A DNA stretch of 64,000 bases, taken from contig NC_089321.1 of NCBI RefSeq assembly GCF_036669915.1, positions 16,320,093 to 16,384,092 on the forward strand, written 5' to 3'. Within the stretch, counting starts at the first letter, position 1, and the number at the start of each line of letters is the position of its first letter. Under the pieces are notes generated by a model. The model was given only the letters and a program-made list of their open reading frames with translations, was not told where the DNA came from and did no database searches. Positions 1 through 61,450 of this stretch are shown here, in pieces. The translations under genes and the position numbers were made by a program. The DNA comes from Pocillopora verrucosa. Taxonomy: Eukaryota > Cnidaria > Anthozoa > Scleractinia > Pocilloporidae.

Positions 1-5
1 CTCAG

Positions 6-578
6 CACCACCGCCGTGTAGCACTCCCGTGGATCTGGCATTTATCATCGATTCTTCGGGCAGCATTGGCCGCACAAACTACAAGAAACAGAAGAACTTT
101 GTCAAGGAAGTGGCGAAGACTTTTGGCCTATCTCCAAACGGCAGCCGAGCGGCCATGGTTCTGTACAGTAACTCGGCCTCAGTGAAAGCTCGATTTGGCC
201 AGTATTCGGACCCGAAGGAGTTCGGTGGAGCTGTAGACAGTCTGCCTTACGAGAGAGGATTGACACGAATCGACAAAGCACTGGACCTAACAGCCAAGGA
301 TATCTTCGCTCAAAGTAGGTCGGGCGTGCCCAAGATTGCAATGCTGATAACAGACGGTACCCAAACCGCAGCAGCCGATGCCAAAGGCCTAAAAGAGGCT
401 TCCGAACCATTGAGACAGGCAGGTGTTCGTGTTCTAGCCGTAGGTGTCGGCAAGGGTGTGGACAGAGAAGAACTTCGACTGGTCACGGAGAGTGACGAGG
501 ATGTTGTGGTGGCGGCTGACTTCGAAGACCTGCTGTTGAAACTCAGCAACCTGACCAGCCAGGCTTGCCGACTTGCAG
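6..578 (+). CDS. vWA exon 1 (array copy 1)
   Basis: This is the reference description for the array exon, 191 residues. Residue 1 is a split Ala. Cys5 and Cys188 flank the domain. The MIDAS is complete: D16-S18-S20, T87 and D117. Two N-glycosylation sequons are present (N45, N182). The acceptor AG is at 4-5 and the donor is GTAAGC at 579. The following 783-nt intron has six TTCTTG repeats and an A/T-rich stretch (841-880) that differs from all later copies. Confidence 0.9.
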
Positions 579-3500
579 GTAAGCATCATCAGAAATCTGT
601 TCGTAGCACTTGTGGCCTCAGGGCTGCTGGGGCTTGATAAGCAGGGCAAGTGAATATCAATTGAAGGATCGAAAGCAGCTTTTGTCCTTATCAGCCGGGT
701 GTTCTTTTTGTGTGTGCTTGTTGCCGTCTGGTCGTCGTCGTTGTTCTTGTTCTTGTTCTTGTTCTTGTTCTTGTTCTTGTAGCTTTGGTCTTTGTATTGC
801 TTATTTCTTCCCGTTTGCTTTGGCCTTTCTGTTTTTGCCTTGAATTAAATTGCTTTAGTTCATCTAGTTATTTATTTTTTTATTTTTTTTTTTTTCCTAC
901 CCCTTTTTGCTTTTGTTTCCTTTTAGTTGGTCTTTCCATTAATGTTCAAAAAAACGAAAACAAAAACAGAAAAACCAACAAAAAAAAATACTTGCTATCA
1001 AAACCTGTTAGAGGTCGAGCGCTCGATGGAAGTGAACATCCGGGACTTCTCGTAAGATAACGACCAAAATACGAAACGGAACGTACAAGTTTGTCACCTT
1101 ATTTTCAGAGTTTCCTTTCGTTGCGTGCAAATCGCATCCATTTGAACTTTGCACAATACTAGTCGCTCTCTCCAAATGGGTCATTTACATCGATACACCC
1201 TCCTAGCCTCCCAATTTGACAGATTGTTTTCACCTGAAGCCTGAGCTCGACAAAGGCAATTCACAATTGAATGGGACTTTCTCCTAGCAAGCCGGGCGGC
1301 CGTTTCACATGTTTTTCAATGGCCACAACTAGTCTGACATGTTGCCTTTCTTTCTCCTCAGCACCACCGCCGTGTAGCACTCCCGTGGATCTGGCATTTA
1401 TCATCGATTCTTCGGGCAGCATTGGCCGCACAAACTACAAGAAACAGAAGAACTTTGTCAAGGAAGTGGCGAAGACTTTTGGCCTATCTCCAAACGGCAG
1501 CCGAGCGGCCATGGTTCTGTACAGTAACTCGGCCTCAGTGAAAGCTCGATTTGGCCAGTATTCGGACCCGAAGGAGTTCGGTGGAGCTGTAGACAGTCTG
1601 CCTTACGAGAGAGGATTGACACGAATCGACAAAGCACTGGACCTAACAGCCAAGGATATCTTCGCTCAAAGTAGGTCGGGCGTGCCCAAGATTGCAATGC
1701 TGATAACAGACGGTACCCAAACCGCAGCAGCCGATGCCAAAGGCCTAAAAGAGGCTTCCGAACCATTGAGACAGGCAGGTGTTCGTGTTCTAGCCGTAGG
1801 TGTCGGCAAGGGTGTGGACAGAGAAGAACTTCGACTGGTCACGGAGAGTGACGAGGATGTTGTGGTGGCGGCTGACTTCGAAGACCTGCTGTTGAAACTC
1901 AGCAACCTGACCAGCCAGGCTTGCCGACTTGCAGGTAAGCATCATCAGAAATCTGTTCGTAGCACTTGTGGCCTCAGGGCTGCTGGGGCTTGATAAGCAG
2001 GGCAAGTGAATATCAATTGAAGGATCGAAAGCAGCTTTTGTCCTTATCAGCCGGGTGTTCTTTTTGTGTGTGCTTGTTGCCGTCTGGTCGTCGTCGTTGT
2101 TCTTGTTCTTGTTCTTGTTCTTGTTCTTGTTCTTGTTGTTGTTGCTTTGGTCTTTGTATTGCTTATTTCTTCCCGTTTGCTTTGGCCTTTCTGTTTTTGC
2201 CTTGAATTATTTTACTTTATTTCATCTAATTATTTATTTTTTTATTTTTTTTTTTTTTTTTTCCCCCCTTTTTGCTTTTGTTTCCTTTTAGTTGGTCTTT
2301 CCATTAATGTTCAAAAAAACGAAAACAAAAACAGAAAAACCAACAAAAAAAAATACTTGCTATCAAAACCTGTTAGAGGTCGAGCGCTCGATGGAAGTGA
2401 ACATCCGGGACTTCTCGTAAGATAACGACCAAAATACGAAACGGAACGTACAAGTTTGTCACCTTATTTTCAGAGTTTCCTTTCGTTGCGTGCAAATCGC
2501 ATCCATTTGAACTTTGCACAATACTAGTCGCTCTCTCCAAATGGGTCATTTACATCGATACACCCTCCTAGCCTCCCAATTTGACAGATTGTTTTCACCT
2601 GAAGCCTGAGCTCGACAAAGGCAATTCACAATTGAATGGGACTTTCTCCTAGCAAGCCGGGCGGCCGTTTCACATGTTTTTCAATGGCCACAACTAGTCT
2701 GACATGTTGCCTTTCTTTCTCCTCAGCACCACCGCCGTGTAGCACTCCCGTGGATCTGGCATTTATCATCGATTCTTCGGGCAGCATTGGCCGCACAAAC
2801 TACAAGAAACAGAAGAACTTTGTCAAGGAAGTGGCGAAGACTTTTGGCCTATCTCCAAACGGCAGCCGAGCGGCCATGGTTCTGTACAGTAACTCGGCCT
2901 CAGTGAAAGCTCGATTTGGCCAGTATTCGGACCCGAAGGAGTTCGGTGGAGCTGTAGACAGTCTGCCTTACGAGAGAGGATTGACACGAATCGACAAAGC
3001 ACTGGACCTAACAGCCAAGGATATCTTCGCTCAAAGTAGGTCGGGCGTGCCCAAGATTGCAATGCTGATAACAGACGGTACCCAAACCGCAGCAGCCGAT
3101 GCCAAAGGCCTAAAAGAGGCTTCCGAACCATTGAGACAGGCAGGTGTTCGTGTTCTAGCCGTAGGTGTCGGCAAGGGTGTGGACAGAGAAGAACTTCGAC
3201 TGGTCACGGAGAGTGACGAGGATGTTGTGGTGGCGGCTGACTTCGAAGACCTGCTGTTGAAACTCAGCAACCTGACCAGCCAGGCTTGCCGACTTGCAGG
3301 TAAGCATCATCAGAAATCTGTTCGTAGCACTTGTGGCCTCAGGGCTGCTGGGGCTTGATAAGCAGGGCAAGTGAATATCAATTGAAGGATCGAAAGCAGC
3401 TTTTGTCCTTATCAGCCGGGTGTTCTTTTTGTGTGTGCTTGTTGCCGTCTGGTCGTCGTCGTTGTTCTTGTTCTTGTTCTTGTTCTTGTTCTTGTTCTTG

Positions 3501-6500
3501 TAGCTTTGGTCTTTGTATTGCTTATTTCTTCCCGTTTGCTTTGGCCTTTCTGTTTTTGCCTTGAATTATTTTACTTTATTTCATCTATTTATTTATTTTT
3601 TTATTTTTTTTTTTTTTCCCCCCCCTTTTTGCTTTTGTTTCCTTTTAGTTGGTCTTTCCATTAATGTTCAAAAAAACGAAAACAAAAACAGAAAAACCAA
3701 CAAAAAAAAATACTTGCTATCAAAACCTGTTAGAGGTCGAGCGCTCGATGGAAGTGAACATCCGGGACTTCTCGTAAGATAACGACCAAAATACGAAACG
3801 GAACGTACAAGTTTGTCACCTTATTTTCAGAGTTTCCTTTCGTTGCGTGCAAATCGCATCCATTTGAACTTTGCACAATACTAGTCGCTCTCTCCAAATG
3901 GGTCATTTACATCGATACACCCTCCTAGCCTCCCAATTTGACAGATTGTTTTCACCTGAAGCCTGAGCTCGACAAAGGCAATTCACAATTGAATGGGACT
4001 TTCTCCTAGCAAGCCGGGCGGCCGTTTCACATGTTTTTCAATGGCCACAACTAGTCTGACATGTTGCCTTTCTTTCTCCTCAGCACCACCGCCGTGTAGC
4101 ACTCCCGTGGATCTGGCATTTATCATCGATTCTTCGGGCAGCATTGGCCGCACAAACTACAAGAAACAGAAGAACTTTGTCAAGGAAGTGGCGAAGACTT
4201 TTGGCCTATCTCCAAACGGCAGCCGAGCGGCCATGGTTCTGTACAGTAACTCGGCCTCAGTGAAAGCTCGATTTGGCCAGTATTCGGACCCGAAGGAGTT
4301 CGGTGGAGCTGTAGACAGTCTGCCTTACGAGAGAGGATTGACACGAATCGACAAAGCACTGGACCTAACAGCCAAGGATATCTTCGCTCAAAGTAGGTCG
4401 GGCGTGCCCAAGATTGCAATGCTGATAACAGACGGTACCCAAACCGCAGCAGCCGATGCCAAAGGCCTAAAAGAGGCTTCCGAACCATTGAGACAGGCAG
4501 GTGTTCGTGTTCTAGCCGTAGGTGTCGGCAAGGGTGTGGACAGAGAAGAACTTCGACTGGTCACGGAGAGTGACGAGGATGTTGTGGTGGCGGCTGACTT
4601 CGAAGACCTGCTGTTGAAACTCAGCAACCTGACCAGCCAGGCTTGCCGACTTGCAGGTAAGCATCATCAGAAATCTGTTCGTAGCACTTGTGGCCTCAGG
4701 GCTGCTGGGGCTTGATAAGCAGGGCAAGTGAATATCAATTGAAGGATCGAAAGCAGCTTTTGTCCTTATCAGCCGGGTGTTCTTTTTGTGTGTGCTTGTT
4801 GCCGTCTGGTCGTCGTCGTTGTTCTTGTTCTTGTTCTTGTTCTTGTTCTTGTTCTTGTTGCTGTAGCTTTGGTCTTTGTATTGCTTATTTCTTCCCGTTT
4901 GCTTTGGCCTTTCTGTTTTTGCCTTGAATTATTTTACTTTATTTCATCTATTTATTTATTTTTTTATTTTTTTTTTTTTCCCCCCTTTTTGCTTTTGTTT
5001 CCTTTTAGTTGGTCTTTCCATTAATGTTCAAAAAAACGAAAACAAAAACAGAAAAACCAACAAAAAAAAATACTTGCTATCAAAACCTGTTAGAGGTCGA
5101 GCGCTCGATGGAAGTGAACATCCGGGACTTCTCGTAAGATAACGACCAAAATACGAAACGGAACGTACAAGTTTGTCACCTTATTTTCAGAGTTTCCTTT
5201 CGTTGCGTGCAAATCGCATCCATTTGAACTTTGCACAATACTAGTCGCTCTCTCCAAATGGGTCATTTACATCGATACACCCTCCTAGCCTCCCAATTTG
5301 ACAGATTGTTTTCACCTGAAGCCTGAGCTCGACAAAGGCAATTCACAATTGAATGGGACTTTCTCCTAGCAAGCCGGGCGGCCGTTTCACATGTTTTTCA
5401 ATGGCCACAACTAGTCTGACATGTTGCCTTTCTTTCTCCTCAGCACCACCGCCGTGTAGCACTCCCGTGGATCTGGCATTTATCATCGATTCTTCGGGCA
5501 GCATTGGCCGCACAAACTACAAGAAACAGAAGAACTTTGTCAAGGAAGTGGCGAAGACTTTTGGCCTATCTCCAAACGGCAGCCGAGCGGCCATGGTTCT
5601 GTACAGTAACTCGGCCTCAGTGAAAGCTCGATTTGGCCAGTATTCGGACCCGAAGGAGTTCGGTGGAGCTGTAGACAGTCTGCCTTACGAGAGAGGATTG
5701 ACACGAATCGACAAAGCACTGGACCTAACAGCCAAGGATATCTTCGCTCAAAGTAGGTCGGGCGTGCCCAAGATTGCAATGCTGATAACAGACGGTACCC
5801 AAACCGCAGCAGCCGATGCCAAAGGCCTAAAAGAGGCTTCCGAACCATTGAGACAGGCAGGTGTTCGTGTTCTAGCCGTAGGTGTCGGCAAGGGTGTGGA
5901 CAGAGAAGAACTTCGACTGGTCACGGAGAGTGACGAGGATGTTGTGGTGGCGGCTGACTTCGAAGACCTGCTGTTGAAACTCAGCAACCTGACCAGCCAG
6001 GCTTGCCGACTTGCAGGTAAGCATCATCAGAAATCTGTTCGTAGCACTTGTGGCCTCAGGGCTGCTGGGGCTTGATAAGCAGGGCAAGTGAATATCAATT
6101 GAAGGATCGAAAGCAGCTTTTGTCCTTATCAGCCGGGTGTTCTTTTTGTGTGTGCTTGTTGCCGTCTGGTCGTCGTCGTTGTTCTTGTTCTTGTTCTTGT
6201 TCTTGTTCTTGTTCTTGTAGCTTTGGTCTTTGTATTGCTTATTTCTTCCCGTTTGCTTTGGCCTTTCTGTTTTTGCCTTGAATTATTTTACTTTATTTCA
6301 TCTATTTATTTATTTTTTATTTTTTTTTTTTTTCCCCCCTTTTTGCTTTTGTTTCCTTTTAGTTGGTCTTTCCATTAATGTTCAAAAAAACGAAAACAAA
6401 AACAGAAAAACCAACAAAAAAAAATACTTGCTATCAAAACCTGTTAGAGGTCGAGCGCTCGATGGAAGTGAACATCCGGGACTTCTCGTAAGATAACGAC

Positions 6501-9500
6501 CAAAATACGAAACGGAACGTACAAGTTTGTCACCTTATTTCAGAGTTTCCTTTCGTTGCGTGCAAATCGCATCCATTTGAACTTTGCACAATACTAGTCG
6601 CTCTCTCCAAATGGGTCATTTACATCGATACACCCTCCTAGCCTCCCAATTTGACAGATTGTTTTCACCTGAAGCCTGAGCTCGACAAAGGCAATTCACA
6701 ATTGAATGGGACTTTCTCCTAGCAAGCCGGGCGGCCGTTTCACATGTTTTTCAATGGCCACAACTAGTCTGACATGTTGCCTTTCTTTCTCCTCAGCACC
6801 ACCGCCGTGTAGCACTCCCGTGGATCTGGCATTTATCATCGATTCTTCGGGCAGCATTGGCCGCACAAACTACAAGAAACAGAAGAACTTTGTCAAGGAA
6901 GTGGCGAAGACTTTTGGCCTATCTCCAAACGGCAGCCGAGCGGCCATGGTTCTGTACAGTAACTCGGCCTCAGTGAAAGCTCGATTTGGCCAGTATTCGG
7001 ACCCGAAGGAGTTCGGTGGAGCTGTAGACAGTCTGCCTTACGAGAGAGGATTGACACGAATCGACAAAGCACTGGACCTAACAGCCAAGGATATCTTCGC
7101 TCAAAGTAGGTCGGGCGTGCCCAAGATTGCAATGCTGATAACAGACGGTACCCAAACCGCAGCAGCCGATGCCAAAGGCCTAAAAGAGGCTTCCGAACCA
7201 TTGAGACAGGCAGGTGTTCGTGTTCTAGCCGTAGGTGTCGGCAAGGGTGTGGACAGAGAAGAACTTCGACTGGTCACGGAGAGTGACGAGGATGTTGTGG
7301 TGGCGGCTGACTTCGAAGACCTGCTGTTGAAACTCAGCAACCTGACCAGCCAGGCTTGCCGACTTGCAGGTAAGCATCATCAGAAATCTGTTCGTAGCAC
7401 TTGTGGCCTCAGGGCTGCTGGGGCTTGATAAGCAGGGCAAGTGAATATCAATTGAAGGATCGAAAGCAGCTTTTGTCCTTATCAGCCGGGTGTTCTTTTT
7501 GTGTGTGCTTGTTGCCGTCTGGTCGTCGTCGTTGTTCTTGTTCTTGTTCTTGTTCTTGATTGTTGTTCTTGTGTTGCTGTAGCTTTGGTCTTTGTATTGC
7601 TTATTTCTTCCCGTTTGCTTTGGCCTTTCTGTTTTTGCCTTGAATTATTTTACTTTATTTCATCTATTTATTTATTTTTTTATTTTTTTTTTTTTCCCCC
7701 CCTTTTTGCTTTTGTTTCCTTTTAGTTGGTCTTTCCATTAATGTTCAAAAAAACGAAAACAAAAACAGAAAAACCAACAAAAAAAAATACTTGCTATCAA
7801 AACCTGTTAGAGGTCGAGCGCTCGATGGAAGTGAACATCCGGGACTTCTCGTAAGATAACGACCAAAATACGAAACGGAACGTACAAGTTTGTCACCTTA
7901 TTTTCAGAGTTTCCTTTCGTTGCGTGCAAATCGCATCCATTTGAACTTTGCACAATACTAGTCGCTCTCTCCAAATGGGTCATTTACATCGATACACCCT
8001 CCTAGCCTCCCAATTTGACAGATTGTTTTCACCTGAAGCCTGAGCTCGACAAAGGCAATTCACAATTGAATGGGACTTTCTCCTAGCAAGCCGGGCGGCC
8101 GTTTCACATGTTTTTCAATGGCCACAACTAGTCTGACATGTTGCCTTTCTTTCTCCTCAGCACCACCGCCGTGTAGCACTCCCGTGGATCTGGCATTTAT
8201 CATCGATTCTTCGGGCAGCATTGGCCGCACAAACTACAAGAAACAGAAGAACTTTGTCAAGGAAGTGGCGAAGACTTTTGGCCTATCTCCAAACGGCAGC
8301 CGAGCGGCCATGGTTCTGTACAGTAACTCGGCCTCAGTGAAAGCTCGATTTGGCCAGTATTCGGACCCGAAGGAGTTCGGTGGAGCTGTAGACAGTCTGC
8401 CTTACGAGAGAGGATTGACACGAATCGACAAAGCACTGGACCTAACAGCCAAGGATATCTTCGCTCAAAGTAGGTCGGGCGTGCCCAAGATTGCAATGCT
8501 GATAACAGACGGTACCCAAACCGCAGCAGCCGATGCCAAAGGCCTAAAAGAGGCTTCCGAACCATTGAGACAGGCAGGTGTTCGTGTTCTAGCCGTAGGT
8601 GTCGGCAAGGGTGTGGACAGAGAAGAACTTCGACTGGTCACGGAGAGTGACGAGGATGTTGTGGTGGCGGCTGACTTCGAAGACCTGCTGTTGAAACTCA
8701 GCAACCTGACCAGCCAGGCTTGCCGACTTGCAGGTAAGCATCATCAGAAATCTGTTCGTAGCACTTGTGGCCTCAGGGCTGCTGGGGCTTGATAAGCAGG
8801 GCAAGTGAATATCAATTGAAGGATCGAAAGCAGCTTTTGTCCTTATCAGCCGGGTGTTCTTTTTGTGTGTGCTTGTTGCCGTCTGGTCGTCGTCGTTGTT
8901 CTTGTTCTTGTTCTTGTTCTTGTTCTTGTTGCTGTAGCTTTGGTCTTTGTATTGCTTATTTCTTCCCGTTTGCTTTGGCCTTTCTGTTTTTGCCTTGAAT
9001 TATTTTACTTTATTTCATCTATTTATTTATTTTTTTATTTTTTTTTTTTTTTTTTTCCCCCCCTTTTTGCTTTTGTTTCCTTTTAGTTGGTCTTTCCATT
9101 AATGTTCAAAAAAACGAAAACAAAAACAGAAAAACCAACAAAAAAAAATACTTGCTATCAAAACCTGTTAGAGGTCGAGCGCTCGATGGAAGTGAACATC
9201 CGGGACTTCTCGTAAGATAACGACCAAAATACGAAACGGAACGTACAAGTTTGTCACCTTATTTTCAGAGTTTCCTTTCGTTGCGTGCAAATCGCATCCA
9301 TTTGAACTTTGCACAATACTAGTCGCTCTCTCCAAATGGGTCATTTACATCGATACACCCTCCTAGCCTCCCAATTTGACAGATTGTTTTCACCTGAAGC
9401 CTGAGCTCGACAAAGGCAATTCACAATTGAATGGGACTTTCTCCTAGCAAGCCGGGCGGCCGTTTCACATGTTTTTCAATGGCCACAACTAGTCTGACAT

Positions 9501-12500
9501 GTTGCCTTTCTTTCTCCTCAGCACCACCGCCGTGTAGCACTCCCGTGGATCTGGCATTTATCATCGATTCTTCGGGCAGCATTGGCCGCACAAACTACAA
9601 GAAACAGAAGAACTTTGTCAAGGAAGTGGCGAAGACTTTTGGCCTATCTCCAAACGGCAGCCGAGCGGCCATGGTTCTGTACAGTAACTCGGCCTCAGTG
9701 AAAGCTCGATTTGGCCAGTATTCGGACCCGAAGGAGTTCGGTGGAGCTGTAGACAGTCTGCCTTACGAGAGAGGATTGACACGAATCGACAAAGCACTGG
9801 ACCTAACAGCCAAGGATATCTTCGCTCAAAGTAGGTCGGGCGTGCCCAAGATTGCAATGCTGATAACAGACGGTACCCAAACCGCAGCAGCCGATGCCAA
9901 AGGCCTAAAAGAGGCTTCCGAACCATTGAGACAGGCAGGTGTTCGTGTTCTAGCCGTAGGTGTCGGCAAGGGTGTGGACAGAGAAGAACTTCGACTGGTC
10001 ACGGAGAGTGACGAGGATGTTGTGGTGGCGGCTGACTTCGAAGACCTGCTGTTGAAACTCAGCAACCTGACCAGCCAGGCTTGCCGACTTGCAGGTAAGC
10101 ATCATCAGAAATCTGTTCGTAGCACTTGTGGCCTCAGGGCTGCTGGGGCTTGATAAGCAGGGCAAGTGAATATCAATTGAAGGATCGAAAGCAGCTTTTG
10201 TCCTTATCAGCCGGGTGTTCTTTTTGTGTGTGCTTGTTGCCGTCTGGTCGTCGTCGTTGTTCTTGTTCTTGTTCTTGTTTTTTCTTTTTATTTGGTCTTT
10301 GTATTGCTTATTTCTTCCCGTTTGCTTTGGCCTTTCTGTTTTTGCCTTGAATTATTTTACTTTATTTCATCTATTTATTTATTTTTTTATTTTTTTTTTT
10401 TCCCCCCCCTTTTTGCTTTTGTTTCCTTTTAGTTGGTCTTTCCATTAATGTTCAAAAAAACGAAAACAAAAACAGAAAAACCAACAAAAAAAAATACTTG
10501 CTATCAAAACCTGTTAGAGGTCGAGCGCTCGATGGAAGTGAACATCCGGGACTTCTCGTAAGATAACGACCAAAATACGAAACGGAACGTACAAGTTTGT
10601 CACCTTATTTTCAGAGTTTCCTTTCGTTGCGTGCAAATCGCATCCATTTGAACTTTGCACAATACTAGTCGCTCTCTCCAAATGGGTCATTTACATCGAT
10701 ACACCCTCCTAGCCTCCCAATTTGACAGATTGTTTTCACCTGAAGCCTGAGCTCGACAAAGGCAATTCACAATTGAATGGGACTTTCTCCTAGCAAGCCG
10801 GGCGGCCGTTTCACATGTTTTTCAATGGCCACAACTAGTCTGACATGTTGCCTTTCTTTCTCCTCAGCACCACCGCCGTGTAGCACTCCCGTGGATCTGG
10901 CATTTATCATCGATTCTTCGGGCAGCATTGGCCGCACAAACTACAAGAAACAGAAGAACTTTGTCAAGGAAGTGGCGAAGACTTTTGGCCTATCTCCAAA
11001 CGGCAGCCGAGCGGCCATGGTTCTGTACAGTAACTCGGCCTCAGTGAAAGCTCGATTTGGCCAGTATTCGGACCCGAAGGAGTTCGGTGGAGCTGTAGAC
11101 AGTCTGCCTTACGAGAGAGGATTGACACGAATCGACAAAGCACTGGACCTAACAGCCAAGGATATCTTCGCTCAAAGTAGGTCGGGCGTGCCCAAGATTG
11201 CAATGCTGATAACAGACGGTACCCAAACCGCAGCAGCCGATGCCAAAGGCCTAAAAGAGGCTTCCGAACCATTGAGACAGGCAGGTGTTCGTGTTCTAGC
11301 CGTAGGTGTCGGCAAGGGTGTGGACAGAGAAGAACTTCGACTGGTCACGGAGAGTGACGAGGATGTTGTGGTGGCGGCTGACTTCGAAGACCTGCTGTTG
11401 AAACTCAGCAACCTGACCAGCCAGGCTTGCCGACTTGCAGGTAAGCATCATCAGAAATCTGTTCGTAGCACTTGTGGCCTCAGGGCTGCTGGGGCTTGAT
11501 AAGCAGGGCAAGTGAATATCAATTGAAGGATCGAAAGCAGCTTTTGTCCTTATCAGCCGGGTGTTCTTTTTGTGTGTGCTTGTTGCCGTCTGGTCGTCGT
11601 CGTTGTTCTTGTTCTTGTTCTTGTTGTTGCTGTAGCTTTGGTCTTTGTATTGCTTATTTCTTCCCGTTTGCTTTGGCCTTTCTGTTTTTGCCTTGAATTA
11701 TTTTACTTTATTTCATCTATTTATTTATTTTTTTATTTTTTTTTTTTTTCCCCCCTTTTTGCTTTTGTTTCCTTTTAGTTGGTCTTTCCATTAATGTTCA
11801 AAAAAACGAAAACAAAAACAGAAAAACCAACAAAAAAAAATACTTGCTATCAAAACCTGTTAGAGGTCGAGCGCTCGATGGAAGTGAACATCCGGGACTT
11901 CTCGTAAGATAACGACCAAAATACGAAACGGAACGTACAAGTTTGTCACCTTATTTTCAGAGTTTCCTTTCGTTGCGTGCAAATCGCATCCATTTGAACT
12001 TTGCACAATACTAGTCGCTCTCTCCAAATGGGTCATTTACATCGATACACCCTCCTAGCCTCCCAATTTGACAGATTGTTTTCACCTGAAGCCTGAGCTC
12101 GACAAAGGCAATTCACAATTGAATGGGACTTTCTCCTAGCAAGCCGGGCGGCCGTTTCACATGTTTTTCAATGGCCACAACTAGTCTGACATGTTGCCTT
12201 TCTTTCTCCTCAGCACCACCGCCGTGTAGCACTCCCGTGGATCTGGCATTTATCATCGATTCTTCGGGCAGCATTGGCCGCACAAACTACAAGAAACAGA
12301 AGAACTTTGTCAAGGAAGTGGCGAAGACTTTTGGCCTATCTCCAAACGGCAGCCGAGCGGCCATGGTTCTGTACAGTAACTCGGCCTCAGTGAAAGCTCG
12401 ATTTGGCCAGTATTCGGACCCGAAGGAGTTCGGTGGAGCTGTAGACAGTCTGCCTTACGAGAGAGGATTGACACGAATCGACAAAGCACTGGACCTAACA

Positions 12501-15500
12501 GCCAAGGATATCTTCGCTCAAAGTAGGTCGGGCGTGCCCAAGATTGCAATGCTGATAACAGACGGTACCCAAACCGCAGCAGCCGATGCCAAAGGCCTAA
12601 AAGAGGCTTCCGAACCATTGAGACAGGCAGGTGTTCGTGTTCTAGCCGTAGGTGTCGGCAAGGGTGTGGACAGAGAAGAACTTCGACTGGTCACGGAGAG
12701 TGACGAGGATGTTGTGGTGGCGGCTGACTTCGAAGACCTGCTGTTGAAACTCAGCAACCTGACCAGCCAGGCTTGCCGACTTGCAGGTAAGCATCATCAG
12801 AAATCTGTTCGTAGCACTTGTGGCCTCAGGGCTGCTGGGGCTTGATAAGCAGGGCAAGTGAATATCAATTGAAGGATCGAAAGCAGCTTTTGTCCTTATC
12901 AGCCGGGTGTTCTTTTTGTGTGTGCTTGTTGCCGTCTGGTCGTCGTCGTCTTGTTTTGTTCTTGTTCTTGTTCTTGTTGTTGCTGTAGCTTTGGTCTTTG
13001 TATTGCTTATTTCTTCCCGTTTGCTTTGGCCTTTCTGTTTTTGCCTTGAATTATTTTACTTTATTTCATCTATTTATTTATTTTTTTATTTTTTTTTTTT
13101 TTCCCCCCCTTTTTGCTTTTGTTTCCTTTTAGTTGGTCTTTCCATTAATGTTCAAAAAAACGAAAACAAAAACAGAAAAACCAACAAAAAAAAATACTTG
13201 CTATCAAAACCTGTTAGAGGTCGAGCGCTCGATGGAAGTGAACATCCGGGACTTCTCGTAAGATAACGACCAAAATACGAAACGGAACGTACAAGTTTGT
13301 CACCTTATTTTCAGAGTTTCCTTTCGTTGCGTGCAAATCGCATCCATTTGAACTTTGCACAATACTAGTCGCTCTCTCCAAATGGGTCATTTACATCGAT
13401 ACACCCTCCTAGCCTCCCAATTTGACAGATTGTTTTCACCTGAAGCCTGAGCTCGACAAAGGCAATTCACAATTGAATGGGACTTTCTCCTAGCAAGCCG
13501 GGCGGCCGTTTCACATGTTTTTCAATGGCCACAACTAGTCTGACATGTTGCCTTTCTTTCTCCTCAGCACCACCGCCGTGTAGCACTCCCGTGGATCTGG
13601 CATTTATCATCGATTCTTCGGGCAGCATTGGCCGCACAAACTACAAGAAACAGAAGAACTTTGTCAAGGAAGTGGCGAAGACTTTTGGCCTATCTCCAAA
13701 CGGCAGCCGAGCGGCCATGGTTCTGTACAGTAACTCGGCCTCAGTGAAAGCTCGATTTGGCCAGTATTCGGACCCGAAGGAGTTCGGTGGAGCTGTAGAC
13801 AGTCTGCCTTACGAGAGAGGATTGACACGAATCGACAAAGCACTGGACCTAACAGCCAAGGATATCTTCGCTCAAAGTAGGTCGGGCGTGCCCAAGATTG
13901 CAATGCTGATAACAGACGGTACCCAAACCGCAGCAGCCGATGCCAAAGGCCTAAAAGAGGCTTCCGAACCATTGAGACAGGCAGGTGTTCGTGTTCTAGC
14001 CGTAGGTGTCGGCAAGGGTGTGGACAGAGAAGAACTTCGACTGGTCACGGAGAGTGACGAGGATGTTGTGGTGGCGGCTGACTTCGAAGACCTGCTGTTG
14101 AAACTCAGCAACCTGACCAGCCAGGCTTGCCGACTTGCAGGTAAGCATCATCAGAAATCTGTTCGTAGCACTTGTGGCCTCAGGGCTGCTGGGGCTTGAT
14201 AAGCAGGGCAAGTGAATATCAATTGAAGGATCGAAAGCAGCTTTTGTCCTTATCAGCCGGGTGTTCTTTTTGTGTGTGCTTGTTGCCGTCTGGTCGTCGT
14301 CGTTGTTCTTGTTCTTGTTCTTGTTCTTGTTCTTGTTGTTGCTGTAGCTTTGGTCTTTGTATTGCTTATTTCTTCCCGTTTGCTTTGGCCTTTCTGTTTT
14401 TGCCTTGAATTATTTTACTTTATTTCATCTATTTATTTATTTTTTTATTTTTTTTTTTTTTCCCCCCCCTTTTTGCTTTTGTTTCCTTTTAGTTGGTCTT
14501 TCCATTAATGTTCAAAAAAACGAAAACAAAAACAGAAAAACCAACAAAAAAAAATACTTGCTATCAAAACCTGTTAGAGGTCGAGCGCTCGATGGAAGTG
14601 AACATCCGGGACTTCTCGTAAGATAACGACCAAAATACGAAACGGAACGTACAAGTTTGTCACCTTATTTTCAGAGTTTCCTTTCGTTGCGTGCAAATCG
14701 CATCCATTTGAACTTTGCACAATACTAGTCGCTCTCTCCAAATGGGTCATTTACATCGATACACCCTCCTAGCCTCCCAATTTGACAGATTGTTTTCACC
14801 TGAAGCCTGAGCTCGACAAAGGCAATTCACAATTGAATGGGACTTTCTCCTAGCAAGCCGGGCGGCCGTTTCACATGTTTTTCAATGGCCACAACTAGTC
14901 TGACATGTTGCCTTTCTTTCTCCTCAGCACCACCGCCGTGTAGCACTCCCGTGGATCTGGCATTTATCATCGATTCTTCGGGCAGCATTGGCCGCACAAA
15001 CTACAAGAAACAGAAGAACTTTGTCAAGGAAGTGGCGAAGACTTTTGGCCTATCTCCAAACGGCAGCCGAGCGGCCATGGTTCTGTACAGTAACTCGGCC
15101 TCAGTGAAAGCTCGATTTGGCCAGTATTCGGACCCGAAGGAGTTCGGTGGAGCTGTAGACAGTCTGCCTTACGAGAGAGGATTGACACGAATCGACAAAG
15201 CACTGGACCTAACAGCCAAGGATATCTTCGCTCAAAGTAGGTCGGGCGTGCCCAAGATTGCAATGCTGATAACAGACGGTACCCAAACCGCAGCAGCCGA
15301 TGCCAAAGGCCTAAAAGAGGCTTCCGAACCATTGAGACAGGCAGGTGTTCGTGTTCTAGCCGTAGGTGTCGGCAAGGGTGTGGACAGAGAAGAACTTCGA
15401 CTGGTCACGGAGAGTGACGAGGATGTTGTGGTGGCGGCTGACTTCGAAGACCTGCTGTTGAAACTCAGCAACCTGACCAGCCAGGCTTGCCGACTTGCAG

Positions 15501-18500
15501 GTAAGCATCATCAGAAATCTGTTCGTAGCACTTGTGGCCTCAGGGCTGCTGGGGCTTGATAAGCAGGGCAAGTGAATATCAATTGAAGGATCGAAAGCAG
15601 CTTTTGTCCTTATCAGCCGGGTGTTCTTTTTGTGTGTGCTTGTTGCCGTCTGGTCGTCGTCGTTGTTCTTGTTCTTGTTCTTGTTGTTGCTGTAGCTTTG
15701 GTCTTTGTATTGCTTATTTCTTCCCGTTTGCTTTGGCCTTTCTGTTTTTGCCTTGAATTATTTTATTTATTTCATCTATTTTTATTTTTTTATTTTTTAT
15801 TTTTTTTTTTTCCCCCCCTTTTTGCTTTTGTTTCCTTTTAGTTGGTCTTTCCATTAATGTTCAAAAAAACGAAAACAAAAACAGAAAAACCAACAAAAAA
15901 AAATACTTGCTATCAAAACCTGTTAGAGGTCGAGCGCTCGATGGAAGTGAACATCCGGGACTTCTCGTAAGATAACGACCAAAATACGAAACGGAACGTA
16001 CAAGTTTGTCACCTTATTTTCAGAGTTTCCTTTCGTTGCGTGCAAATCGCATCCATTTGAACTTTGCACAATACTAGTCGCTCTCTCCAAATGGGTCATT
16101 TACATCGATACACCCTCCTAGCCTCCCAATTTGACAGATTGTTTTCACCTGAAGCCTGAGCTCGACAAAGGCAATTCACAATTGAATGGGACTTTCTCCT
16201 AGCAAGCCGGGCGGCCGTTTCACATGTTTTTCAATGGCCACAACTAGTCTGACATGTTGCCTTTCTTTCTCCTCAGCACCACCGCCGTGTAGCACTCCCG
16301 TGGATCTGGCATTTATCATCGATTCTTCGGGCAGCATTGGCCGCACAAACTACAAGAAACAGAAGAACTTTGTCAAGGAAGTGGCGAAGACTTTTGGCCT
16401 ATCTCCAAACGGCAGCCGAGCGGCCATGGTTCTGTACAGTAACTCGGCCTCAGTGAAAGCTCGATTTGGCCAGTATTCGGACCCGAAGGAGTTCGGTGGA
16501 GCTGTAGACAGTCTGCCTTACGAGAGAGGATTGACACGAATCGACAAAGCACTGGACCTAACAGCCAAGGATATCTTCGCTCAAAGTAGGTCGGGCGTGC
16601 CCAAGATTGCAATGCTGATAACAGACGGTACCCAAACCGCAGCAGCCGACGCCAAAGGCCTAAAAGAGGCTTCCGAACCATTGAGACAGGCAGGTGTTCG
16701 TGTTCTAGCCGTAGGTGTCGGCAAGGGTGTGGACAGAGAAGAACTTCGACTGGTCACGGAGAGTGACGAGGATGTTGTGGTGGCGGCTGACTTCGAAGAC
16801 CTGCTGTTGAAACTCAGCAACCTGACCAGCCAGGCTTGCCGACTTGCAGGTAAGCATCATCAGAAATCTGTTCGTAGCACTTGTGGCCTCAGGGCTGCTG
16901 GGGCTTGATAAGCAGGGCAAATGAATATCAATTGAAGGATCGAAAGCAGCTTTTGTCCTTATCAGCCGGGTGTTCTTTTTGTGTGTGCTTGTTGCCGTCT
17001 GGTCGTCGTCGTTGTTCTTGTTCTTGTTCTTGTTGTTGCTGTAGCTTTGGTCTTTGTATTGCTTATTTCTTCCCGTTTGCTTTGGCCTTTCTGTTTTTGC
17101 CTTGAATTATTTTATTTTATTTCATCTATTTATTTATTTTTTTATTTTTTTATTTTTTTTTTTTTTCCCCCTTTTTGCTTTTGTTTCCTTTTAGTTGGTC
17201 TTTCCATTAATGTTCAAAAAAACGAAAACAAAAACAGAAAAACCAACAAAAAAAAATACTTGCTATCAAAACCTGTTAGAGGTCGAGCGCTCGATGGAAG
17301 TGAACATCCGGGACTTCTCGTAAGATAACGACCAAAATACGAAACGGAACGTACAAGTTTGTCACCTTATTTTCAGAGTTTCCTTTCGTTGCGTGCAAAT
17401 CGCATCCATTTGAACTTTGCACAATACTAGTCGCTCTCTCCAAATGGGTCATTTACATCGATACACCCTCCTAGCCTCCCAATTTGACAGATTGTTTTCA
17501 CCTGAAGCCTGAGCTCGACAAAGGCAATTCACAATTGAATGGGACTTTCTCCTAGCAAGCCGGGCGGCCGTTTCACATGTTTTTCAATGGCCACAACTAG
17601 TCTGACATGTTGCCTTTCTTTCTCCTCAGCACCACCGCCGTGTAGCACTCCCGTGGATCTGGCATTTATCATCGATTCTTCGGGCAGCATTGGCCGCACA
17701 AACTACAAGAAACAGAAGAACTTTGTCAAGGAAGTGGCGAAGACTTTTGGCCTATCTCCAAACGGCAGCCGAGCGGCCATGGTTCTGTACAGTAACTCGG
17801 CCTCAGTGAAAGCTCGATTTGGCCAGTATTCGGACCCGAAGGAGTTCGGTGGAGCTGTAGACAGTCTGCCTTACGAGAGAGGATTGACACGAATCGACAA
17901 AGCACTGGACCTAACAGCCAAGGATATCTTCGCTCAAAGTAGGTCGGGCGTGCCCAAGATTGCAATGCTGATAACAGACGGTACCCAAACCGCAGCAGCC
18001 GACGCCAAAGGCCTAAAAGAGGCTTCCGAACCATTGAGACAGGCAGGTGTTCGTGTTCTAGCCGTAGGTGTCGGCAAGGGTGTGGACAGAGAAGAACTTC
18101 GACTGGTCACGGAGAGTGACGAGGATGTTGTGGTGGCGGCTGACTTCGAAGACCTGCTGTTGAAACTCAGCAACCTGACCAGCCAGGCTTGCCGACTTGC
18201 AGGTAAGCATCATCAGAAATCTGTTCGTAGCACTTGTGGCCTCAGGGCTGCTGGGGCTTGATAAGCAGGGCAAGTGAATATCAATTGAAGGATCGAAAGC
18301 AGCTTTTGTCCTTATCAGCCGGGTGTTCTTTTTGTGTGTGCTTGTTGCCGTCTGGTCGTCGTCGTTGTTCTTGTTCTTGTTCTTGTTGTTGTAGCTTGGT
18401 CTTGTTGTTGCTGTAGCTTTGGCCTTTGTATTGCTTAATTATTTTATTTTATTTCATCTATTTATTTATTTTTTTATTTTTTTATTTTTTTTTCGGTCGT

Positions 18501-21500
18501 TTTGACAAACGCCTGCTCTAATATTATGCTTTTTTTATTCTAATGGATTGATATTTTGAAGTTCCATAGCATTATAGGTAAAGGTTATTTTTAATTTGTA
18601 CTACCAGACTTTATATAGTATATTTATAGGGGGTGTTTAGTAAAAGCTTTTTATTTGGGGTCTCTCACTGATATAAGATATTTTATTGCTTTGTGTTTAG
18701 TTTGCTAGTATTTGTTTTGAGTGCTAGACTGCTGGAATTTAGATTTCCGGGCTTTTAGATTTTGAATTTTCCTGGGTAAGTTTTTCCGTTGAACTCCTTT
18801 AATGTAATGTGACTTTTGCGGGAAGAAACGCCTTTTTTAATGCAGGCAGCCGTCTATAGAATGTTACTATGGAAACCTCAAGAATTTTTTATTTTCGAGT
18901 CATTTTATTGGTTCATTAGTCTTATTACGTGATACTCTCTACCTTAGATAGTGTTTTCACAGTTGTGTTGGGTCTGAATTCTTTAGAGCTGTATATTTCG
19001 CTGGATTTGTGCTTTTGTGATAAGTATACACATAAGGCTTAGATTATTTAACTTCATTGCGTATCTAGTCGTTGTTAAATAGAGAATAACACATGGGTGC
19101 GCGTGGATATGGAGTTTCTCTTCGAGTGTTTAACTCGATGGCTCACGAGTGAGCACAGCGAACGAGTGAGATGTCGAGTTGAATAGGAGAAGAGAAATTT
19201 CATATCTAAAAGCAACCATGTATTATTTTGTTTATCACATAAACACAATAGCCCTTTACTTGCAAGAAAATATCTCTTTTTTTTCACGTGTATTGTTACG
19301 GTTTCTCTCGGGGCTGGAAATCCTTGTAAAACACTGTAGTTTATATGATGAATATACAATATATTTTGGCTGTAATCATCAAATTTGTTTCTTTGCCAGC
19401 GAAACGGAGGTCGTCTTGTTTGATTCCCATGGATATTGCTTTCCTGTTGGATTCTTCAGATGCCGCTGGAAAGGCTGGTTTTCAGAGGGAGAAGGAGTTT
19501 TTCAAACTTATGTCAAGTACTCTATCATTGTCTCTCAGTGGTACTCGTGTAGGTGTAATTTCTTACAGTGCACAAGCAAACCTCGCAGTGGCTCTTCAGG
19601 AAAATACCACCGCCCAAAATTTGCGATCTGCCATCGATGCGCTTCAATTTGTGGGAGGAACTCCCAGAATTGAGAAGGCACTTGAATCTGTCCTTACTGA
19701 CTTGTTTACCTTCGATAGGGGGACCAGGTCTGGAATCCCAAAGGTAGCCGTTCTTTTGACGAAGGTATCAGACTCAAACATTTTGCAGTATGAAACTCTC
19801 AGGAGGGCAGCCGCACCATTAAAAACAGAGGGTGTGGAATTAATTGCCGTAGGTGTAGGCCGAGACGGCGATCTTCAAGATTTACGTGTATTAGTTGGCA
19901 GCGAGGAATATGTTTTAGGAACAGAGTCCTTTGATAGCCTTTCTGAATTGGTAGAAGACGTTACGCTTCTTGCATGTAAAGCTGCAGGTGAGAGAACTTT
20001 ATCTTTACATAATACATTAAATTTTACATAGAGTTACAGCAGTGTTCACGTGGCGAGTTTTAATGGGAAATTTCCATATTTGGAAGACGGAAAAAGGCTG
20101 GTAACTTGAAAGGATACTCGTCAATGAATTTAAATGATTTTGGGATATACATACACCAGTAAGTTTTCCAAGGCAAGTGTATTTCACTCGCTATCTTTAC
20201 TAATGTTTAAGTTGAAACCCTATTTCGTAATATGCGCTCTTGCAGAAACATTTGCTGGTGTAAATGTTGCTTGTAAAATGTGTAAAGAACAAAACTGGGG
20301 TGAACAGTTTGCCAAATGTAAACGTTTGCTGTGATCTATTACTGAAAAGACGCATATTAACATGAAAGTTATTACTTTCATATTAAAAAGAAAAAATTAA
20401 AGATGAGGTAATCTGAGATCGGTAGATCGTAAGCAAGGACCAATCAAAATGCCTGTATAATTCAGCCAATCAATTAGTAATCTAGAAATCACTCACGTCA
20501 ATTCCTCTTACATGAGTTATTTGAGTTTAAACAGTTATGTTCGCTGTTGCAAAAAAGTGCTCTTTTATTAATCAAATTTTGCGCCTCTACATGTCTTCTA
20601 GAACCAAAACGGATCATTTATCCTATGGACGCTGCAATCCTAGTTGACACGTCCGCTGGCATTAGTGCCCTCAACTTCCAGAGGGAGAAAGCTTTTGTTA
20701 AGACTCTTATAAGAAGTTTTACCATTTCAAGGAACTTGAGTCGTGTAAGCCTGTTATCTTACGGTAACAAAACAGAAGTCACCGTAAATTTCTTTGACCA
20801 GCAAAACAGAGAATCTCTCACACGAAATGTCGATTCTTTGCCCCTCTTGGGTGGGCCGTCGCAAATAAATCAAGCTCTAGAGGTCGCAGCTTCGCAGCTT
20901 TTCTCCCCTTCTGGTTCGTCTCGCGCCGCAGTGCCAAGGACTATTGTGGTAGTAACGGATGGTCGACAGGATCTTACGGTGGGCTCCGGTGGTCTAAATG
21001 AGACAATAGCCCTGTTGAGGCAAAATGGCGTTAAGATTCTAGTGGTGGCTGTTGGCGGTGAAGACGTTGACGAGGATGGATTGGGCAGCCTTGTTGAAGA
21101 GGAAGATCATATATTTACCGCTGAATCGTTTGAAACTTTGGCCGCTAAATTGGAGAAAGTCAGCACTGTAGCCTCCGAAATTGCAGGTTAAATTAAATGT
21201 CTTAATTTACCCGATATTTCATCCGTTATATTTCTTTTTTGAAACACTAAGTTTTTGCGCCTAAGCGTGTACACTTCTTACCATTGATCCGATGTAGAAA
21301 TCAACTTACAGAATTCCTTTCAATGCAAAACAGGTAACGGCAAGATACTTTTAGCTATTGTTTGCGACGAGAAACAAAACTACCTTAAACTTGACGGAAT
21401 GCACAAATTGTTGTTTCGGTGAGATAAAGAAAACGTCGGCAAAACAAAGATAAAACCGAGTAGAAAACAATAAATACAGTGAGTGATTTATGAGTTTGAA

Positions 21501-24500
21501 ATACTGCAATCTCAAGATACACAAACCTTCCTCATTTTAGTCATTTCAATGAAGTGAGCAAAACTAAAAAATCATTTATCACTGTACTTGTTACCACAGT
21601 TTCTTTTTCACAGTTGTCTGATTGGGCTGCAAAAAGAACAATCAATAACTTGCGGAATTAATCCTTAATAAATAACAATTACCGATATTTCAAGTCCTGT
21701 TAATCAGCGACGTACAGAATTACGCTAAGCAAAACTCTAGGATAGGAAGAATAAGCCAGAAAGGAGTAAAGGAAGAAATTGACTCGGATTGCAAATAAAA
21801 AATGCAAGCCAAATTTGTTAAGATTTGCACACTTGGACGTTGCTCCTTCGACAAATTGTCCTCAGAACCATGCGACGTAAGAATTCGTTTTCCTTTGCCA
21901 CAAGTTTGAGAATGCCTTAAAATGGCAAAACGAAAAAAACAGTTAAGAAAACACAATAAAATATTTCTGCTGTTGTCTTTCCCAGCACCTGACCGTTGTG
22001 GTAAAGTGACTGACATCGCCTTTATAATGGACGCCTCGGACAGTGTTGACAGCCAGAGTTACCGCATTCAAAAGGACTTTGTCAAAGCAATCGCAAAGAG
22101 CTTCGGTTTGCAACCAGGGGCGAGCCGAGCAGGAATCATTCTTTCCGGCAAGAAACCAACAGTGAACATTAAGTTTGATGACTACTTGCAAACCGAAGAC
22201 TTCATAGAGGCGGTAGATAGACTTCCTCACCCTCGCGGACATGCTGGAATAGACAAAGTCCTCGATGTGGCTCTAACTCAGCTATTGGCCAACAGAGGTG
22301 GTGCAAGACCTGGATTGGGGAAGATACTAGTGCTATTAACAGCAAACACTCAAAATCAATCTCTAGATACAAAGTTGCTGGATAGTGTCACCAGAAGGCT
22401 CCAACAGTTGGGAGTGGCTTTGGTTGTTATCGGTGTCGGTAAACAGGTGGATGAGACACTGCTTCGTCCTTTGGTTACGAAAGGAGAGAATCTTTTCCTA
22501 GAAAGATCGTTTGAAAGTCTGATGCTTAAAGCTCGACAAGTAGCACAAATTACGTGTGACAACGCAGGTATTTTTCATTACCACCGCTGAAACTTTCGAA
22601 GAGAGCCTTAAGTAGTCCGGAGTGGTCCATGTACCCATATTTCAATTTCAAAACCATTCTTCAAAGTCAGAACTGAATATCAAATCACTTAATATTAAAA
22701 AGAATACAAAGATTTCTTACGAGCACTAAATGAAAACCACTTATGAGGCAATGTTAAAGAGAATTGTTTATCCAGTTACCTTTTTATCTAGCTAGGAGGA
22801 TACGCTAACCTTCCCCTCCCCCCCTCACCTTTGTCACTCCGACAGTTTGACTTTACTCGCCTGAGATGTTTATTAGTATTCAATTTTCTGAGGAATTTTA
22901 GTTTGCTACAAGTTGCATTGGTAATATAACTCGCCATTTAAAAAGTGTGAACTCACGCGACAGTTTAAAATGCTGTAAGTTCCTTTACAATTTTCACATG
23001 AACAACACATTTTATGCGTTTATTTGAGACTAGTTCGTTCTATTCCTCGCCGCCTTTGACCGCAAATTAAATGATAAATTAAGAAAAATTATGTCTGCAA
23101 TAGGAAATATTTTTGGAATAGATCTAACAGCGAAAGTGATGGAGGCAAGATTTAATACATACAATATATTAATATGATTTTTTGATAAATATGATTTATT
23201 TCCCTTCGTGTAGGATACTCAAGATGCAGAAACCCAGTTGATGTCGCTTTTCTGGTGGACTCTTCGGGTAGTCTTGGCGAGGAAGGTTTCCGCGAGCAAA
23301 AGGACTTTATAAAAGTGATTACGAACACCCTCAATGTATCTCCCTCACACAGCAAGGCGGGTGTCATCACTTACAGTGATAGAGCTTCTGTGGCAATAAA
23401 ATTTTCAGACTATCAATACCACGCACAGTTGGTCAATGCCCTTGACGCGCTGCCATATCAAGGTAAAACCACACGGATTGACAGGGCCATTGTGAAGGCC
23501 TCTAAAGAACTCATGACAGTGGAAGGAGGTAGAAGAAAGGATATACCTGGAGTTATGGTCATAATGACCGACGGGAGACAGACTCAGGACTTTGACGTCA
23601 CGCCTTTAGAGCAAGCAGCTGCGGTCTCAGAGGAAATGGGGGTAACAACTTTGGTGCTCGGAATTGGGGAACTGGCCAACGTGAATGAGCTCAGAAAAAT
23701 GACTGCACGAGATGGCGACGTTTTCTTGGCTTCCTCTTCTCGAGCTTTGAACAGTTTTGCACAACCAGTTGCCACAAGAATATGTAATGCTGCAGGTACC
23801 TTAAATTGTTGCTTTATACGTTCTGTTCATTTTGGGTACCTTCCCAGGTTAACAACTATGATTTTGGTCATAAGTGGTTTCAAATGCCATACTGAGTCCA
23901 TCAGATGAGCCATATTCAAGGTTATTCCCTTAATTTCATATGTCACTCCCATTTCCAGAGATGCTCCGAGAGTATAGAAAGTCACGCGGACTTTCAATTT
24001 CCATAAGGTTATCAATTTCTTCCTGAAAAGAAAGCGTTTTGTAAGTTAACAGAAGATATTATCTTTTTAGCACCAAAGACATGTGATGTTCCACTAGATG
24101 TTGCCTTTTTGGTTGAGTCGTCTGAGAACATTTCACCAAGAGACTATAAAAGAATTAAAGATTTCATCAAAGAGGCGGCCACCTACCTGTCAAGAAGCGA
24201 CAACGAACAGCAAGTTGGTGTCATTGTGTTCAATACCGAGGCCAAGATATCCATAAAGTTTGGACAATATTGGTCCGAATACGATTTTGATCGTGCAATT
24301 GATGATCTTCCTCTAAACACAGGACCATCGCAACTTGATACAGCTCTTCGCGTTGCCACCAAATTGTTCACTGCTGAAAATGGAGCCAGACCCGGGGTTC
24401 AGAAAGTCGGCATCGTATTAACAAATGGAAAGCATCCTGCTGTAGAAGACCTGGAGGACCTGAAGGATGTGGTAAGACCTCTTCATCAAGCAGGGGTCCA

Positions 24501-32012: not shown

Positions 32013-32197
32013 GGTCGGCATTAGATTCCATCCATCAAAACCACCTCGGTCGAGAGGGACTGAGATGCAATATTTAATGACTTGCAAAACATAACCGAAG
32101 ATTCGCAAGTGATGTAGCCGAACATCCGAAGCTGTAAATCCCATGAATCTTGAGGAACAAACAGAAACAGCATAGCGAGAATTTTAAGTCGCGAACC

Positions 32198-34709: not shown

Positions 34710-34995
34710 ACGTAACATCTGGGCACCTTTTAAATACGTGAAATATCTGCATAAAATTGCGTAAAATGTTTTAAAATATTACAATCGAACAATAAATTAA
34801 TACTTACCATTTCTTGAGTAAAAAGTTTTGACGCAATTTCCCAAACAAATAATACACTTAGGTCATCGGGATAAGTCGGCATGTTGTCGTAGCTTCCTAA
34901 TTTTAGTTTAGTATAACAAGTCATGAGTTGTCCATCATTCCATCTCAGTCCCTCTCGACCAAGGTGGTTTTGGTGGATGGAATCTAATGCTGACC

Positions 34996-60481: not shown

Positions 60482-61450
60482 TCATTTTTGGTGATCAGTT
60501 GGTTCATTTGTTAATGAGCTTGAGGTATTTGGAAGGGTATTTTCAATCTTGGAAAATTCACATTCCTCAATGATAGCAACTTCTTGGACTGTATCAGAAC
60601 ACATGTCAATGCCGCTGTCAGCCAATGAGAGAGCATCTGCATCACCAGCGGGAGAATTATCTCCATTCTGGTCTATGTAGACATCTGTTTCACTGAGATT
60701 ATCAGCACTCCCCATAAAAGATTCAGTGTCGAGACTATCAAATGAAATGTCAAATTGGTCAGTTTCATCCACAGTGATTCTCGTGCACAGAGTTCCTCAT
60801 TACCATGAATCAGTTCCTTGCAGTTACACTGGCAGTTGTCTCTTTCATCCTCAAAGCCTCCATTTGTTGGTTCTCTTTCATCTTCAAATTCTCCATGAGA
60901 TGTCTCTCTTTCACCTCCTCTTTCTTTGTTTTCAGTATGAATACCATCAACTTTTCCATTCAGCAGATTTGGCATTGAACCACTCTTTTGTTCCCCTATT
61001 TCAAACTTTCCTTTGTGCTTTAGAGATTTTAGCCGAGGCCTTTCATTCGACTGTCTCAATTTAAGCCACTGTCTCACACTCCTTTGTATTACTGTGGCTG
61101 CTTTCTTTAGTTTCAGAAAATGGCGCCTTTCTCTGAAACGTTTAAAGGCAGCTTGAATGATTCTTACTGCATTATCTAACACAGCTTCTTGAAACTTCTC
61201 AATTAGTTTGTTACAGGCACTGTAATCTTCTTTAGATGCCAGTGATTCTTGATTATTTTGAAGACTATTTTCATCCTTTGTGTTGTATGCACAATCCACT
61301 TTATCTTTATTGTATAAATCTATGCTCTCATGCCCTCTTTCTAAATCCTTTTCATTGCTCCCAACCCCTGCTGAATTGCGGTCACTCTCTCACCTTTAAT
61401 TGTGTCATCTTTTGCATTTTTCACCTTGTTCTGAGATTGGCTGCAGGGCC
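60482..61450 (-). CDS. Gene 3 exon 2: IQ motifs and acidic tail
   Basis: The acceptor (GTTGTTGACAG on the minus strand, at 61,451) follows a T-rich stretch. The opening GG CCC TGC AGC is in phase with exon 1. IQ motif 1 maps to about 61,111-61,170 and IQ motif 2 to about 61,050-61,105. The C-terminal acidic segment (SFDSLDTESFMGSADNLSE) lies at about 60,690-60,760 in a different frame from the IQ motifs. Confidence 0.55.

Follow-up and report, generated by a model that had tools for sequence, protein, structure and literature searches.

The coral Pocillopora verrucosa appears to carry, within a multi-domain extracellular vWA gene, an intragenic coding macro-VNTR of the LPA kringle-IV-2 kind, shaped by recent amplification and ongoing unequal exchange (probability about 0.6). 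The DNA analysed, referred to here as the window, is a stretch of 64,000 nucleotides (contig NC_089321.1, positions 16,320,093 to 16,384,092, forward strand). Exact comparison and translation identify 14 exons of 573 nt between positions 6 and 18202, all encoding the same 191 residues (Table 1), which confirms the count, product and coordinates proposed in a sequence-only reading of this region. Fourteen-fold identity of this kind is impossible by chance. As the window opens 5 bases before exon 1, 14 units are a minimum, and the array may extend upstream.

Exons of the Array

Only two DNA sequences occur among the 14 exons, one in exons 1-12 and the other in exons 13 and 14. The sole exon change is the T>C at exon position 374, and because this single change is synonymous, the strength of selection on the protein is unmeasurable. 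All 14 exons are preceded by AG and followed by GT, and the splice sites are strong (acceptor CTCAG/CACCACC, donor GCAG/GTAAGC; for the acceptor of exon 1, the window covers the last five intron bases alone). Splice-site and frame analysis places every exon in phase 1-1, as had been claimed, and this symmetry means that units can be added or removed with the reading frame intact. The array exons sum to 14 x 191 = 2,674 residues, in agreement with the earlier figure. Given the splice sites, we infer that all of them would be joined in one mRNA.

Table 1. Positions of exons and introns in the window.
Feature	Position	Strand	Remark
Array exon 1, vWA, 573 nt	6-578	+	Phase 1-1; first exon in window
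Array exon 2	1362-1934	+	DNA identical to exon 1
Array exon 3	2727-3299	+	DNA identical to exon 1
Array exon 4	4084-4656	+	DNA identical to exon 1
Array exon 5	5444-6016	+	DNA identical to exon 1; its intron has a 1-nt homopolymer deletion
Array exon 6	6797-7369	+	DNA identical to exon 1
Array exon 7	8161-8733	+	DNA identical to exon 1
Array exon 8	9522-10094	+	DNA identical to exon 1
Array exon 9	10868-11440	+	DNA identical to exon 1
Array exon 10	12214-12786	+	DNA identical to exon 1
Array exon 11	13568-14140	+	DNA identical to exon 1
Array exon 12	14928-15500	+	DNA identical to exon 1
Array exon 13	16277-16849	+	Synonymous T>C, exon position 374
Array exon 14, last copy	17630-18202	+	Same T>C as exon 13
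Repeated intron, first of 13 complete copies	579-1361	+	(TTGTTC)n + T/TTTA microsatellite block; remainder invariant in units 1-12
Truncated intron of unit 14, 3' end of array	18203-18493	+	Unit homology ends in T-tract near 18493
Ten diverged vWA exons	19400-29904	+	All phase 1-1; 32-43% identical to array exon
Diverged vWA exons 1-5 of ten	19400-19987, 20602-21186, 21986-22567, 23214-23795, 24071-24649	+	Phase 1-1
Diverged vWA exons 6-10 of ten	24994-25578, 26089-26670, 27094-27675, 28224-28805, 29329-29904	+	Phase 1-1
Single vWA exon after ~13-kb gap	42796-43380	+	Fits phase 1-1; same gene or first exon of a second one
13 TSP1 exons, ~171 nt	44407-52176	+	Phase 1-1 in the 11 delimited
Five vWA exons	52804-53385, 54003-54596, 55029-55616, 55843-56421, 56669-57282	+	Four of five fit phase 1-1

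Variation Among the Repeated Units

Each unit consists of one exon and an intron of ~780 bp, and units are spaced 1346-1365 bp apart. The intron contains a microsatellite block of 158-177 bp, in which (TTGTTC)n is followed by T/TTTA tracts; units were split around this block into a left part of 735 bp and a right part of 459 bp, or 1,194 bp compared. Outside the block, units 1-12 have zero substitutions over 1,194 bp each, introns included, and the sole indel is the 1-nt deletion in unit 5, which may be a consensus error. Unit 13 has two substitutions relative to units 1-12 (the exon T>C and an intron G>A at 645), unit 14 has one on the left part, and unit 1 carries a private intron variant block. 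The mean number of differences per unit pair is 0.41.

The introns had been described as nearly identical. This holds for the 1,194 bp outside the microsatellite block in units 1-12, but not inside the block, where all 13 complete units differ from each other. The block differences involve whole 6-nt units and private motifs, beyond homopolymer length; the small ones are not to be over-read, since they, like the unit 5 deletion and a frameshift in a TSP1 exon (see below), may be consensus errors. Block similarity drops with distance along the array (rho 0.38, permutation p 0.005). Most private differences are held by the end units, the edge units being the most divergent.

At the 3' end, the T-tract where the homology of unit 14 stops is for that reason the likely breakpoint of the founding duplication. 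The intron directly after the array contains one of two inverted copies of an element (19076-19270 and 47790-47932; 90-93% complementary), which is probably a short transposable element. Apart from the truncated intron of unit 14, nothing else in the window matches the array intron convincingly, and the interpretation of this intron as a local dispersed repeat was rejected on this ground.

The Encoded vWA Domain

The assignment of the array exon to the vWA family is upheld by profile match, predicted fold and metal site. The exon matches the Pfam profile PF00092 with 118.5 bits (cut-off 23.8, E 5e-34) and encodes one complete, intact domain. Its AlphaFold model (pLDDT 95.9) has a Rossmann-like vWA fold, and TM-scores of 0.8-0.9 were obtained against domains of mussel byssus PTMP1, vWF (A1/A3), integrin I and collagen VI. 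The terminal Cys pair, C4 and C187, is almost invariant across the vWA exons.

The MIDAS residues (DxSxS, T, D) are frequent but not universal in vWA domains. The array exon has all five (D15, S17, S19, T86, and D116). Of the other 16 vWA exons in the window, 9 also carry the full set, which is incomplete in v2, v3, v4, v6, v7, v11, and v17 (vWA exons numbered along the window). Loss of MIDAS residues affects five of the first six vWA exons 3' of the array (19400-25578), whereas the array copy and most exons beyond this group retain theirs. The intact site in the array and its loss in most of the nearest downstream copies mean that the amplified copy is one in which the metal site was preserved. 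In a tree of the vWA exons of the window, the array exon has no closely related partner with support; the one well-supported fork lies elsewhere. Relatives were found neither by protein search of viral contigs nor by exact-DNA search of viral and prokaryote contigs, and an Rfam search gave no match.

Downstream Exons and Extent of the Gene

The array and the downstream exons may form one gene. The vWA and TSP1 exons at 42.8-57.3 kb are neighbouring, on the same strand and nearly all in phase 1; the best donor of the final vWA exon (56669-57282) is in a different phase. Two neighbouring TSP1 exons (46990-47183 and 47983-48176), whose flanks are 85% identical over 194 nt, are probably a younger duplication than the other TSP1 exons. 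The TSP1 exon near 51554 (51535-51797) has a 1-nt frameshift in a C-run region, with its halves in different frames, and reflects either an error in the consensus or decay of the exon.

Between 29.9 and 42.8 kb (~13 kb), no recognised extracellular domain was found; the stretch contains repeat debris, a weakly matching ALS2CR8-like fragment (PF15299; 32559-32660, + strand) and an inverted pair of sequences (32013-32071 and 34937-34995; 93% complementary). There is an even chance that this stretch, which separates exon 29329-29904 from exon 42796-43380, divides two genes, an array-bearing vWA-only gene ending near 30 kb and a vWA-TSP1-vWA gene starting at 42.8 kb. Compatible phases on either side of it speak for continuity, as does the fact that neither a terminal exon nor a signal-peptide exon was identified. 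Either arrangement can be reconciled with the preferred explanation of the array.

Scans of + frames at 29.9-42.8 kb and 57.2-64 kb (all frames but one in the latter interval; the gene may exceed the window) show no F5/8 type C domain, and no collagen triple-helix repeat occurs in the window regions scanned, the gene ends lying outside the window. Two open frames on the minus strand (238 and 104 aa; 60482-61389) are perhaps exons of an adjoining gene; the 238-aa frame has a borderline IQ motif, slightly below the Pfam cut-off.

Proposed Origin and Maintenance of Uniformity

The array would have grown by tandem duplication of an exon-plus-intron unit, and the 3' end of the array lies in the T-rich tract. 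Unequal crossing-over or conversion between units would then maintain uniformity, and units could be gained or lost by exchange without disruption of the frame. The predicted spliced product is a bead string in which 14 or more identical vWA domains, each bearing a MIDAS, are followed by diverged ones; unit number would set both the length of the string and the number of metal-dependent binding sites. Like that of human apolipoprotein(a), the length of the protein probably changes through unequal exchange, and copy number may vary.

Selection on the protein had been excluded as the cause of the identity, and this conclusion stands, because the non-microsatellite intron is as identical as the exon; this equality points to recent common descent or exchange. 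The two processes put forward in the sequence-only reading, recent amplification or ongoing exchange, gain support from the diverged edge units, the distance-dependent block similarity and a raised GC content. Exon GC is 0.538 in the array versus 0.471+-0.011 in 16 paralogous vWA exons, and intron core GC is 0.435 versus 0.361+-0.018. Fourfold-site GC of the array exon is raised mildly (z 1.4), so the argument leans on total exon GC and on the intron. The raised GC is moderate evidence for a trace of GC-biased conversion, given that fourfold sites are just 1.4 SD high and that the GC richness could go back to the founding unit. In a simple birth-death simulation with a mutation rate of 5e-9, where rate and model are both assumptions, ~1e-4 to 1e-3 exchanges per unit per generation reproduce the observed uniformity (0.41 differences per pair).

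The extreme identity of the units could also be produced by an assembler that expanded one or a few units to 14 or placed two haplotypes end to end. The differences lie in tracts of homopolymer and microsatellite sequence, which consensus errors also affect, and the frameshifted TSP1 exon indicates that the consensus is possibly imperfect. Such an artefact is nevertheless unlikely: a copied contig would repeat its microsatellite blocks, whereas all 13 complete blocks are distinct by 6-nt units and private motifs, similarity declines along the array (p 0.005), and the edge units carry real substitutions. Unique blocks, distance decay, edge differences and raised GC together speak for a natural array in which exchange continues, rather than for an artefact of copying. 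It is doubtful, though conceivable, that the array arose in a single recent burst, with exchange absent since then and copy number now fixed. The lack of changes in 12 x 1,194 bp, which limits mutation rate x time to less than about 2e-4, would fit such a burst, as would fast microsatellites that have already diverged; the GC content raised in both exon and intron suggests a longer recombination history, and the graded edge-to-centre divergence fits repeated local exchange.

In every complete unit, an open reading frame of 240 aa runs from an ATG 91 nt before the exon to a TGA, placing MGLSPSK...MATTSLTCCLSFSSA, with a faint signal-peptide look, ahead of the vWA domain. That these are fourteen separate one-exon genes is highly improbable, since the MGLSPSK... 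stretch includes the polypyrimidine tract ahead of a strong acceptor, a strong donor ends the exon, and the ten diverged neighbours are also phase-1-1 exons without a common upstream ORF. This candidate was rejected on the splice-site and paralogue evidence, and a coding array maintained by exchange within one gene is the explanation retained.

Comparison with Known Systems

To our knowledge, such uniformity is rare among coding arrays of whole folded domains, and the well-studied case is LPA. The head-to-tail, near-identical, frame-neutral exon-plus-intron units typical of a VNTR of the LPA-KIV-2 type are present here, and the array is flanked on its 3' side by ten vWA exons of 32-43% identity, its 5' side lying beyond the window. 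Human LPA kringle IV-2 likewise consists of tandem exon-plus-intron units that are in frame, nearly invariant and located beside diverged copies of the same domain (PMC4378929). Judged by this organisation, it is the closest known system, and the array would be of the same kind in a new protein family. The LPA unit spans 5.5 kb with two exons, encodes a kringle and has a proven range of 1 to >40 copies, whereas the array unit spans 1.35 kb with one vWA exon and is known from a single assembled sequence.

Repetitive coding units and introns are also homogenised within Argiope major ampullate silk genes, for which unequal crossing-over helped by repetitive introns was proposed (PMC9779670), but the silk units are short low-complexity motifs and the array unit is a folded 190-residue domain. 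Collagen VI alpha-3, the best sequence match of the array domain in PDB, has a long N-terminal vWA run arranged as beads on a string (PMC3919171); its domains have diverged and a conserved MIDAS is missing from most of them, in contrast to the identical, MIDAS-intact array domains. The top fold match, mussel byssus PTMP1 (TM 0.89), is a byssus matrix protein with a tandem vWA pair and a metal-occupied MIDAS, but it has two vWA domains only, with ~29% identity to the array domain.

Among coral proteins, the TSP-1 and VWA / COL6A6-like or coadhesin-like skeletal matrix protein combines vWA with serial TSP1 and resembles the 42.8-57.3 kb part (PMC4890752, PMC8382919). In Acropora digitifera, this protein contains three vWA and two F5/8C domains, with no vWA array described, and F5/8C was not seen in the window frames scanned. 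In coral tandem gene duplicates, introns diverge faster than exons and gene conversion was judged uncommon (Noel et al., PMC10236652). The array is unusual in comparison with these duplicates, and the rarity of conversion among them counts against the ongoing-exchange reading. No comparable vWA exon array was found in the open-access papers searched, a set that covers only a minority of subscription journals.

Possible Role and Significance

Proteins with vWA and TSP1 domains are common in corals. By analogy with other vWA proteins, the encoded protein probably acts in adhesion or in the extracellular matrix, and identical MIDAS domains in a row point to multivalent binding, whose strength or reach would scale with unit number. 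The skeletal organic matrix of corals includes vWA/TSP1 proteins (PMC4890752, PMC8382919). In vitro, a coral vWA domain changed how calcium carbonate precipitates (PMC12662967), and coral vWA genes are already expressed ahead of settlement (PMC3204972).

A tentative possibility, modelled on KIV-2 in apolipoprotein(a), is that the array makes an adhesive protein of hypervariable length in an early-branching animal, with unit number differing widely between individuals or clonal lineages, so that a matrix or cell-contact protein would vary in how far it reaches or how strongly it binds. Such differences are perhaps somatic, provided that the species lives long and forms colonies. Genes of this type would be collapsed in short-read assemblies and gene models. 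If real, the array would stand in contrast to the uncommon conversion among coral tandem gene duplicates (PMC10236652) and would provide a second, unrelated LPA-like system, in a vWA gene, in which unit turnover, GC-biased conversion and length-dependent adhesion would be approachable.
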